From Thermoplasmatota archaeon (GTDB taxonomy: Archaea > Thermoplasmatota > Thermoplasmata > UBA10834): a stretch of DNA of 64,000 bases. Positions 6,601-9,590 of this stretch are shown piece after piece. The stretch spans positions 186,001 through 250,000 of the forward strand of contig JAHIRF010000002.1 in the NCBI GenBank assembly GCA_018818785.1, given 5' to 3'. Positions within the stretch are counted from its first letter, which is position 1, and each line of letters begins with the position of its first letter. The position numbers were made by a program, and so were the translations under genes. Under the pieces are notes generated by a model. It ran no database searches. It was not told the origin of the DNA and saw nothing but the letters and a program-made list of their open reading frames with translations.

Positions 6601-6658
6601 TGACATTATCAGACGAAATGTGACATTTTGGATACCTATATATATGATTGTATGACAT
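6601..6658 (+). promoter_or_regulatory. Promoter with three TGACAT direct repeats upstream of the RHH gene
   Basis: TGACAT occurs at 6601, 6621 and 6653, each inside a similar context (TATGACATTA, TGTGACATTT, GTATGACATA). The repeats are 20 and 32 bp apart, close to two and three helical turns. The string ctatatatat (6637-6646), a good TATA box, lies between the second and third. Ribbon-helix-helix proteins commonly bind such short direct repeats, so these are candidate operator half-sites for the regulator encoded just downstream. The repeats are directly visible; the binding is inferred. Confidence 0.5.
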
Positions 6659-6698
6659 ATGTTCCTTCTGCGTCAGCAAATTGGGATGGGATGCACAC

Positions 6699-7079
6699 AT
6701 GAACGACCCGTTGGAAAATGAACGAATAACTCTTCGCCTTGATTCGGAGGATCTCCGGCTCATCGACGAGTTCATAACGAACAGCAACGAGTTCTCCAAC
6801 AGGTCGCAACTAGCACGCGCGGCAATACGCGCATACGTGGATGCAAAGCTAGGGTGTGCAGAGGGAGCGAGCAACAAACCGAACGAGGTGGTCGTGGAGC
6901 TACCACCTCTAGTGATGGATACCGTAACACACCTCGTGACTGAGGGCGTCTACAATTCGGTGTCCGAGGCGCTAAGCGACTGCGCCCGACACCACTTCCT
7001 CCACGCGGAGCACGTGGAGACCATAAAGAAGGACGTTACGCAGCTGAGGAGCACGGTTAAGGTCGTTCCCCGAGCTTAG
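6699..7079 (+). CDS. Double ribbon-helix-helix transcriptional regulator next to ftsZ-like gene
   Basis: 126 residues from the ATG at 6699; the frame is open upstream to a TTG at 6648, but that would overlap the promoter. It has two tandem RHH-like segments. The first is ERITLRLDSEDLRLIDEF..SRSQLARAAIRAYVD, a classic CopG/MetJ strand-helix-helix. The second is EVVVELPPLVMDTVTHLV..SVSEALSDCARHHFL. An intrachain pair would act like an RHH dimer. The next gene on the strand is an FtsZ-family gene. RHH regulators adjacent to ftsZ are known in archaea, for example CdrS in haloarchaea, so control of cell-division genes is a reasonable inference. Confidence 0.8.
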   Translation: MNDPLENERITLRLDSEDLRLIDEFITNSNEFSNRSQLARAAIRAYVDAKLGCAEGASNKPNEVVVELPPLVMDTVTHLVTEGVYNSVSEALSDCARHHFLHAEHVETIKKDVTQLRSTVKVVPRA

Positions 7080-7171: not shown

Positions 7172-7960
7172 ATGACGGCGGAAGAAGGGAACAGCACGGA
7201 AGAGATAATCAATTCATTGGGAGCGAGTCTGGGCGAACCGACGATAGCAGTTGTTGGCTGTGGAGGAGCGGGCTCGAACATCGTACATCGCATGTACTGG
7301 AAGCACAACAGGGTCGAGACCGTTGCCATCAACACGGATGAGGAGCACTTGAGAAAGACGGATGCCCACAGGAAAGTGTTGATAGGCAAGAACGTGTCCT
7401 TCGGCAAGGACGCCGGCGGTTACCCCGAGATCGGTGAGCACTGCGCAGAGAAGGCTCGCGAGGTCATACGAGAGGCGATAAAGGGCTACGACATCGTGTT
7501 CGTCGTCGCAGGAATGGGAGGCGGCACCGGTACGGGCGTAGCACCCATAGTGGCCAATGTCGCCAAGGAGATGAACGCGATCTCATTCGCTGTGCCGATA
7601 CTTCCATTCGAGGTCGAGGGCGCCAATCGCATGAAGACTGCGGTGGATGGGCTCGCCAAGCTCAAGGATAATGCGAGCTTCACAATCGTGCTCGACAACA
7701 ATAAGTTGATCGGCCTGGGAGACTCTCTGTCAGTCTCAGACGCTATGGGAGTCATCGACCGGAGCGTCATGAAGATCGTGGATTCCGTTTCGCAGCAGAC
7801 CAGCTCGTATGTGAGCTCGCTCATGGAAGAGATATCAGGATTCACGGATACGGATGCATCGGAAGAAATGCCGCAGACCATGCCTTCAACGATGGAAGGA
7901 CCGATGATACATGCGGATCTGAACCCGATGCTCAACAATTTCGGGCCTGGCTTCTTCTGA
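7172..7960 (+). CDS. FtsZ-family GTPase lacking the T7 loop and C-terminal domain
   Basis: 262 residues, against about 350-400 for normal archaeal FtsZ. The GTP-binding domain is intact: GCGGAGSN at 29-36 (T1 loop), INTDEEHL near 53, and the tubulin signature GMGGGTGTG at 114-122. The LPFEVEGANRM and VLDNNKL segments correspond to later conserved GTPase-domain parts. The H7-like helix (about 186-208) is followed by SQQTSSYVSSLMEEISGF. The catalytic T7 loop (NxDFADV in FtsZ) and the C-terminal activation domain are absent. The tail is acidic/Met-Pro rich and ends FGPGFF. A good ribosome site (ggaggccagaagg) precedes the ATG. No leftover domain is encoded downstream, so this is not a simple frameshift. 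It probably binds GTP but cannot complete a partner's active site. Confidence 0.85.
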   Translation: MTAEEGNSTEEIINSLGASLGEPTIAVVGCGGAGSNIVHRMYWKHNRVETVAINTDEEHLRKTDAHRKVLIGKNVSFGKDAGGYPEIGEHCAEKAREVIREAIKGYDIVFVVAGMGGGTGTGVAPIVANVAKEMNAISFAVPILPFEVEGANRMKTAVDGLAKLKDNASFTIVLDNNKLIGLGDSLSVSDAMGVIDRSVMKIVDSVSQQTSSYVSSLMEEISGFTDTDASEEMPQTMPSTMEGPMIHADLNPMLNNFGPGFF

Positions 7961-7994: not shown

Positions 7995-8402
7995 ATGAGA
8001 CGCATCCTCAATGATTCCGGAAATTGGCTTAAGACGATTGACGAGTCAGAATGGAACGAAATCAGGAAGGACTATCTCGAAGATGAGATCAGAAGCATAT
8101 GTGAGCCTTTCGTCTTCGACCCGGATTCCGTCCCGGAGAATGAGGAGAAGTCGATCGGTTCGGTGTTCGTGCCTGCACGGTGTGGCACCGGAAAGCGTCT
8201 GAATGGAACCATCGGCAACGTGATGATGAAGAGGGTGTCTCATGATGATACGCACAGCTTTGAGGTTCACGTGAAGGTCTGGACCGCGTCCGGTCGCGAA
8301 CCTCCGAGATTGGCAGATGTGCACGCGTGGAGATTCGATTCCGTACACGAAGCGGAGCGATTCATCTCGCCGCCGTCGAAGAATAACTTCGCTTGGGTAT
8401 GA
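7995..8402 (+). CDS. Hypothetical protein downstream of the ftsZ-like gene
   Basis: 135 residues, no recognised domain. The N-terminus is rich in Asp/Glu/Arg. The middle (SVFVPARCGTGKRLNGTIG, then HSFEVHVKVWTASGREPPRLADVHAWRFDS) looks like a compact beta-rich fold with a single Cys. It starts 34 bp after the ftsZ-like stop on the same strand, so it is probably co-transcribed and is a candidate partner. No homologue is recalled. Confidence 0.6.
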   Translation: MRRILNDSGNWLKTIDESEWNEIRKDYLEDEIRSICEPFVFDPDSVPENEEKSIGSVFVPARCGTGKRLNGTIGNVMMKRVSHDDTHSFEVHVKVWTASGREPPRLADVHAWRFDSVHEAERFISPPSKNNFAWV

Positions 8403-8489
8403 TGATCGAACGAGAAACCCCTTCCGCGGGTGTTTTCAGATAGATTAAGACGACAAATGGTTTCTAGTCGCAAAGCGCTAACCATCTCG

Positions 8490-9590
8490 ATGAAGGCTGG
8501 CTTCGTCATCAATCCGATCGCCGGCATGGGAGGACCTGTCGGTCTGAAGGGTACCGACGGAATCGATGCGGTTGAAGAGGCCATAGATCGAGGCGCAGCC
8601 AGGACGGCTGAACGGAGGGCCATCGACTCATTGCAGGGAATCAAATCAGCAGAGCTCCCCATAGAGTTCGTCACCTGTTCTGGAATCATGGGGGAGACCG
8701 CCCTTACCGCAGCCGGATTGGAGGCTCGCGTTGTCTGCAAATCCAAGCCTGAGACGGATTCCGCGGATACCAGGAACTGTGTGGCAAGGTTCATCGACGA
8801 AGGAGCTGAGATAATCATATTCGTCGGAGGAGACGGGACCGCGAGGGATGTTTTGTCCGTAGTTGGCTCAAGGCTCCCGATTCTAGGCGTTCCGGCAGGA
8901 GTCAAGATGCATTCCGCAGTCTTCCTTAACACACCCCAGGCCTTGTCACAGGTGATGGAGTCGTTCCTCAGATCCAGATTATCTGAAGAAGCCGATGTGA
9001 TGGACATAGATGAGGAGGCTTTCAGGGAGGGCAGGGCGATAAGTCGCCTATTCGGGGTGGCGCGGGTACCTGACGACCGCGTCCACATGCAGACTGGAAA
9101 ACAGTCCTTTGTTTCAGGCACGGCGGACGACGAAGCGTTGGAATTGGGGCGGTACATCGTCGACACGATGGAGCCTGACATCACGTACATAATTGGTCCA
9201 GGAGGCACAACTGCGCACGTCGCCAAAGCGATGCAGTCAGACAAGACATTGCTGGGCGTCGATGTATACAGGGACGGATACATCGTCTGTCACGATGCTT
9301 CCGAGAGGGACCTGGAGGCAATCATGGCTTCAGGCAGACCGGCCAGGATAATCGTCTCGCCCATCGGCTCTCAAGGGTTCCTGTTCGGGCGAGGCAACCA
9401 GCAGATATCACCTGAGGTCATAAGACGCGTCGGATTGGAGAATGTGATCATCATATGCACGCCAACAAAGCTCCTGTCGACGCCTGTGATGAGAGTTGAC
9501 ACCGGAGATGCTTCATTGGATGCCCAGCTCAGAGGCAGCGCCAAGGTCGTGGTCGGCTACAAGAGAAGAAGGCTTGTGCGAATACTCTGA
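8490..9590 (+). CDS. ATP-NAD kinase-like protein (COG3199 family)
   Basis: Predicted NAD or sugar-type kinase of the diacylglycerol kinase/NAD kinase fold; 366 residues from the ATG at 8490. The start is placed where the family opens (MKAGFVINPIAGMGG); the reading frame extends 20 codons further upstream. The glycine-rich GGDGTARD motif near residue 115 is the hallmark nucleotide-binding loop. It is followed by LGVPAGVKMHSAVF, the equivalent of the NAD kinase second motif. Later segments YIIGPGGTTAHVAKAM and LLGVDVYRDG are typical of COG3199/AcoX-like proteins. The exact substrate is unknown. It is the last gene before the convergent por operon. Confidence 0.82.
   Translation: MKAGFVINPIAGMGGPVGLKGTDGIDAVEEAIDRGAARTAERRAIDSLQGIKSAELPIEFVTCSGIMGETALTAAGLEARVVCKSKPETDSADTRNCVARFIDEGAEIIIFVGGDGTARDVLSVVGSRLPILGVPAGVKMHSAVFLNTPQALSQVMESFLRSRLSEEADVMDIDEEAFREGRAISRLFGVARVPDDRVHMQTGKQSFVSGTADDEALELGRYIVDTMEPDITYIIGPGGTTAHVAKAMQSDKTLLGVDVYRDGYIVCHDASERDLEAIMASGRPARIIVSPIGSQGFLFGRGNQQISPEVIRRVGLENVIIICTPTKLLSTPVMRVDTGDASLDAQLRGSAKVVVGYKRRRLVRIL

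Follow-up and report, generated by a model that had tools for sequence, protein, structure and literature searches.

Background

In FtsZ and tubulin, which are two-domain subunits, hydrolysis is coupled to assembly through the T7 loop. The FtsZ filament regulators MciZ and SulA are not FtsZ homologues. Archaeal FtsZ1 and FtsZ2 (TIGR00065) combine the GTPase domain PF00091 with the C-terminal domain FtsZ_C (PF12327). In the halobacteria Halobacterium and Haloferax, a ribbon-helix-helix (RHH) protein, CdrS, is encoded directly upstream of ftsZ2 on the same strand and controls it; FtsZ2 is a complete FtsZ, and division requires it (PMC7439475). Departures from the standard architecture are known as well. 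The thaumarchaeal FtsZ of Nitrosopumilus (Nmar_1262) lacks T7 and was reported not to polymerise (PMC3684127), and in work cited in the same paper mutations of T7 disrupted the polymerisation of FtsZ but not its GTP binding. FtsZl1, of the FtsZl1/FtsZl2 and Tubulin_2 families, joins an FtsZ-like GTPase core to a coiled-coil region and to a C-terminal domain other than the usual one; on archaeal FtsZ paralogues lacking motifs the same report makes general remarks only (PMC2875224).

Here we describe a short FtsZ (sFtsZ, P0001) found in a window of 64,000 nucleotides, the whole stretch of DNA that was analysed, on contig 9 of an archaeal assembly of the class Thermoplasmata (1.97 Mb, 94.5% complete, 12 contigs). 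It shares the GTPase fold and all nucleotide loops with FtsZ1 and FtsZ2, with 35–42% identity to solved FtsZs in structure alignments, but has neither T7 nor FtsZ_C nor a terminal peptide of the GID type, and scores under the TIGR00065 cut-off. Like ftsZ2 it follows a CdrS-like RHH gene, whose product, in contrast, falls far under the CdrS cut-off. Unlike Nmar_1262 it keeps the GTP-binding motif, and it is less divergent than FtsZl1, scoring under the Tubulin_2 cut-off (PF13809, 18.7 versus 27 bits). sFtsZ is a functional FtsZ paralogue of which the nucleotide-binding half and a tail remain, and no paper that we found describes its clade. In a literature search that covered mostly open-access articles, no account of a short FtsZ shared across the class came up; the nearest related reports are PMC3684127, PMC2875224, PMC9871819 and PMC10936438.

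The sFtsZ gene and its locus

The features of the locus are as follows.

6648..7079, + strand: RHH regulator gene, directly upstream of sFtsZ with a gap of 92 bases; PF01402 and PF17723 over cut-off
7172..7960, + strand: sFtsZ, 262 aa, reading from an ATG to a stop codon; a GTPase domain followed by a long helix H7 and a tail, with T7 and the C-terminal domain lacking
7256..7279, + strand: T1 loop GCGGAGSN of sFtsZ, residues 29–36, GTP contact
7331..7339, + strand: T2, NTD, residues 54–56, from the alignment of 48 short homologues
7511..7537, + strand: T4, tubulin signature GMGGGTGTG of sFtsZ, residues 114–122, from sequence and alignment
7604..7618, + strand: T5, PFEVE (PFxxE) of sFtsZ, residues 145–149, Glu in 48/48 of the alignment
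T6, DNN, sFtsZ residues 175–177: present
7733..7855, + strand: extended helix H7, residues 188–228 in the model, spanning the place of T7; from AlphaFold2 and alignment
7856..7957, + strand: C-terminal tail, residues 229–262, with the conserved MIHADLNP and a terminal FGPGFF
7995..8402, + strand: hypothetical gene, 135 aa, between sFtsZ and the NAD-kinase-like gene; not FtsZ_C
8430..9590, + strand: NAD-kinase-like gene, a neighbour conserved within the family and also kept in a genome of the same order (G019) and in G054, which carries mcr

Membership of sFtsZ in the FtsZ/tubulin superfamily follows from its Pfam Tubulin match (PF00091, residues 25–181, 146 bits versus a cut-off of 33, E 2e-42), the conserved loops T1–T6 and a Z-score of 25 between its model and FtsZ. 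The marks of a canonical FtsZ, namely T7 (NxDxxD/E), FtsZ_C and a TIGR00065 score over the cut-off, are all missing: Pfam returned no FtsZ_C match to sFtsZ at E up to 10, and the NCBIfam ftsZ equivalog covers residues 22–207 only, with 210.4 bits versus a cut-off of 295.2. Sequence matches to FtsZs in PDB likewise end by residue 208. The original prediction, drawn from the sequence alone, was of a protein reduced to the GTP-binding domain, with intact GTP-site motifs, neither T7 nor a C-terminal domain, and no second half downstream. Loops T1, T2, T4, T5 and T6 are indeed all intact, both losses are borne out, and the 135-aa gene downstream is not FtsZ_C, having no match in Pfam or NCBIfam. 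"Reduced" holds for the absent parts only, as the GTPase domain is followed by a longer H7 and by about 35 tail residues that include conserved motifs. A C-terminal half encoded elsewhere was rejected, because all seven FtsZ_C matches of the genome belong to other tubulin-family genes. The 135-aa gene was matched only within the same genus at this locus, with 31–33% identity.

The RHH gene may start at TTG 6648 or ATG 6699. Its product scores 28.9 of 100 bits against NF058555, under the cut-off of a model that was built for halobacterial CdrS.

Orthologues and selection within the family

Of the 19 genomes of the family, 18 carry an orthologue of sFtsZ, with 59–78% identity among the other genomes; the single genome without one is 55% complete. 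The same short form stands at the locus in 15 named records, the relatives including the Thermoplasmata MAGs RBG_13_57_23 and UBA9653, and where the contig reaches far enough the gene order is LeuRS, RHH, sFtsZ, NAD-kinase-like and 2-oxoacid oxidoreductase. With the short form and the same neighbourhood kept by so many relatives, and a full C-terminal domain at the locus in none, a base error hiding T7 and an assembly error are excluded. In a sixteenth record, G011 (L055/L090), the locus is kept and the C-terminus differs after residue 213, possibly through a frameshift; it is the only such sFtsZ in the family.

The pairwise dN/dS ratio (Nei-Gojobori; pairs with the window sequence are near saturation at silent sites) is about 0.07–0.11 for the gene, 0.05–0.07 for the GTPase domain and 0.18–0.32 for the tail, all well under 1. 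sFtsZ is under purifying selection. Pseudogene formation, frameshift or assembly error as the origin of the short form was rejected from orthologues, synteny and dN/dS, in agreement with the earlier view that the gene is not a pseudogene.

Distribution, origin and linkage to RHH genes

The wider distribution was studied by profile searches in 300 Thermoplasmata genomes and targeted searches in subsets, after which the loci were read. At least 20 families of the class have short, T7-less, closed open reading frames (19 tallied, plus f15, whose signature escaped the pattern), and more divergent short forms are found in further families (f4, f9, f14, f21, f31). The two RHH-linked short homologues of f9, L211 and L212, have degenerate T2 and T4 loops, so they perhaps no longer bind GTP. 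Outside the class no short form was seen among the best phylum-sample matches fetched (E up to 1e-60); these carry T7, and most of them lie behind an RHH gene.

The tree was built on columns of the GTPase domain only (residues 22–206), so the truncation itself does not enter it. In a tree that left out seven long-branch rows of several groups, the 44 short rows make one clade (support 99/93) that is present in 99% of bootstrap trees. With all rows included, the clade has an SH-aLRT support of 84 and the very divergent L008, described below, falls inside it. Judged from the GTPase-domain tree, the T7-less short forms have a single origin.

The suggestion that relatives be searched for the same truncated form beside an RHH gene was fruitful, since the pair was found across the class. 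An RHH gene lies just upstream on the same strand in 96 of the 97 sFtsZ genes whose upstream sequence was long enough to score, a count in which some entries are the same gene in two records (the family counts sum to 80 genomes when named records are left out) and in which 15 neighbours are not independent, as the RHH profile was built from them. The sole exception, L207, is short even for this group. Among T7-bearing FtsZs, an RHH gene is found upstream in 25 of 75, mostly genes of the L007 type and their counterparts in other classes, and in none of the remaining 50.

These data bear on the view that sFtsZ is a decaying FtsZ copy without function. The degenerate pocket in some families (L211 and L212 of f9) and the altered C-terminus in G011 could be read that way. 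We consider it highly improbable, as both selection and distribution already contradict it: the low dN/dS, class-wide retention, the conserved pocket and the near-strict RHH linkage. An old gene kept across the class beside a regulator gene is thus a working part of cell biology rather than a broken gene.

Residue conservation and predicted structure

Representatives of the short homologues (48 sequences) were aligned and set against 57 T7-bearing full-length FtsZs chosen for comparison. The N, D and D of T7 occur in 0/48 short homologues versus 57/57 of the full-length proteins. The nucleotide loops of the short homologues are well kept. In T1, each position is conserved in 40–48 of 48 except positions 30 and 35, with glycines in 46–48 and Asn36 in 40; in T2, N is found in 48, T in 46 and D in 47. 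The glycines of T4 are present in 43–48 of 48, and the Glu of T5 and the Asn of T6 in all. Conservation in the T3 loop, situated close to the gamma phosphate and to the filament interface, is lower than in full-length FtsZ (G82 in 17/48, P85 in 24/48).

The motif [ILMV]H[AV][DENSAT] is seen in the tails of 7 out of 21 families. When each family is represented by a single sequence, the mean is 4.6, against 0.37 after shuffling of the tails, with 4 as the highest value among 2000 shuffles; this is a description and not a test, because the motif was picked after the tails had been viewed.

The AlphaFold2 model of sFtsZ (16 sequences, mean pLDDT 72, pTM 0.68) has an FtsZ-type GTPase domain that is predicted with confidence apart from the T3 loop (pLDDT mostly 84–93 outside it), and it superposes on S. 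aureus FtsZ with Z 25 and an rmsd of about 2 Angstrom over about 183 residues; the monomer structure prediction proposed earlier thus supports an FtsZ fold. Trimmed structure alignments stop at sFtsZ residues 211–219, where T7 lies. The structure matches include 4u39 and 1ofu, the FtsZ complexes of MciZ and SulA. Residues 188–228 form a single helix in the model, with low confidence past about residue 210 (pLDDT 54 for 211–220 and 46 for 221–230), and the tail is disordered.

The long H7 raises the possibility that sFtsZ builds its own polymer through a new contact, in which the extended helix and the tail would replace T7 and the C-terminal domain. The prediction of one long helix and the presence of sFtsZ as the sole tubulin homologue found in some genomes of family f6 (see below) speak for such a contact, but the helix is of low confidence in the very part concerned, its extension varies between families, and the T7 mutants cited in PMC3684127 are disrupted in assembly. 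We regard a polymer of this kind as quite unlikely.

Other tubulin-family genes of the genome

The search of the genome for a second ftsZ, likewise suggested at the outset, yielded seven further tubulin-superfamily genes, six of them with T7. Five are canonical FtsZs with T7 and a C-terminal domain (L001–L005), L001 and L002 being divergent neighbours and L003 and L004 a tandem pair. L007 (G000:C12:185812) is full-length and T7-bearing, has an RHH gene upstream, and is the closest paralogue of sFtsZ with 48% identity. Full-length T7-bearing FtsZs thus coexist with sFtsZ in the host genome, as they do in its family. Most canonical copies end in GIDFVR-like peptides (GIDFVR, GLDFIK and similar), which the sFtsZs do not have.

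Eight tubulin-superfamily genes (L001–L008) in one archaeal genome of 2 Mb are an observation in their own right, and similar numbers are seen across the family. L008 (G000:C9:319696-320085) is a 317-aa frame with a degenerate P-loop (GLGSAGCN) and signature (GLGGISGSLG), an altered T7 and no RHH gene upstream; L008-like proteins occur in family f7 (L200, L222).

Proposed role of sFtsZ

Since the GTP pocket is conserved while T7 and the C-terminal domain are absent, sFtsZ is predicted to bind GTP without completing a GTPase site for its own copy. From FtsZ biochemistry we expect that it cannot complete the site of a neighbour, and therefore could not grow a homopolymer. As the likeliest of the roles considered, we tentatively propose that sFtsZ is a regulated end-cap or co-subunit of a filament of full-length FtsZ and not a filament builder, a role that seems to us quite possible though short of probable. 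In genomes such as that of the host, the nucleotide face of sFtsZ would dock on the T7 face exposed at one filament end of a full-length FtsZ, the closest candidate partner being the RHH-linked paralogue L007, and docked sFtsZ would end or control the partner filament. The cap may be timed by GTP, because T7 of the partner would hydrolyse the GTP of sFtsZ and so release it. The tail could bring in another factor. The dose of sFtsZ might be set by the RHH protein encoded upstream, in the way that CdrS acts on ftsZ2. Blocking of a filament end would resemble the action of MciZ and SulA by analogy, with the difference that the cap would be made from FtsZ itself.

In favour of capping we count the pocket kept while T7 was lost, the single origin, the low dN/dS, the FtsZ-type GTPase domain of the model, the coexisting full-length FtsZs, the RHH-linked L007, the RHH genes ahead of nearly all sFtsZ genes, the control of ftsZ2 by CdrS and the T7 mutants that still bind GTP; the relaxed T3 loop (G82, P85) counts against it. 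Capping or filament regulation fits the host genome, with its seven other tubulin-family genes, but not family f6, in which no T7-bearing FtsZ was found.

The methanogen family f6

McrA was found in all 15 f6 genomes tested, so f6 comprises methanogens of the class Thermoplasmata. Methanogens of this class are Methanomassiliicoccales; the family is probably Methanomethylophilaceae. An assignment of f6 to Thermoplasmatales was dropped, as f6 has McrA; f18, with a T7-bearing FtsZ and with ESCRT-III in 2 of 3 genomes tested, fits Thermoplasmatales better.

sFtsZ is the most retained tubulin homologue of f6 (28 of 30 genomes). A second T7-less homologue, with an open frame of roughly 270–400 residues, occurs in 21 genomes and never without sFtsZ (21/21). 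This second protein (L193–L197, L226–L239) has a C-terminal half, no T7 and mostly no intact T3, and is RHH-linked in most genomes. For seven of the 28 genomes with sFtsZ (G024, G203, G167, G291, G252, G261, G175), no other tubulin homologue was found. T7 is absent from all f6 sequences read, FtsZ_C was under the cut-off in 7 of 7 genomes tested, and a search of 11 genomes for ESCRT-III found it in none. SepF was found in five of the 11 f6 genomes tested, four times over the cut-off and once under it.

Capping cannot be the whole function in f6, since no T7-bearing FtsZ was found there and in a quarter of the sFtsZ-bearing genomes no other tubulin homologue was detected. An alternative that we hold possible but doubtful is a stand-alone GTP switch, a monomeric or dimeric GTP-binding protein that would signal via its tail, and perhaps through the RHH protein, and report for instance the GTP level or the division state. 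It would account for the persistence of sFtsZ as the only homologue detected in seven f6 genomes and agrees with the occurrence of the second homologue only alongside sFtsZ, the reverse of which does not hold, with the recurring tail motif and with the relaxed T3 loop. Outside f6, however, most genomes with sFtsZ also have a full-length FtsZ; the nucleotide pocket remains FtsZ-like, no protein known to activate a switch of this sort was seen, and a very divergent partner in f6 could have escaped detection.

A broader reading would make RHH-sFtsZ an old Thermoplasmata module, built on a tubulin homologue of half size that binds GTP, is not catalytic and functions with no T7-driven filaments; in f6 it would form the core of a division system with neither catalytic FtsZ nor ESCRT-III. 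We put this forward as unlikely but conceivable.

Implications

A 2024 survey scored Thermoplasmata genomes by the presence or absence of FtsZ (PMC10936438). For genomes in which sFtsZ is the only FtsZ, a score of "FtsZ present" would not imply that a Z-ring operates. sFtsZ also bears on how the methanogens of the class divide when neither a complete FtsZ nor ESCRT-III is found in them. Methanomethylophilaceae, to which f6 probably belongs, are gut archaea. A nucleotide pocket kept and a catalytic loop lost over long evolutionary times separate GTP binding from filament growth, and make sFtsZ a natural test of what each half of FtsZ does.
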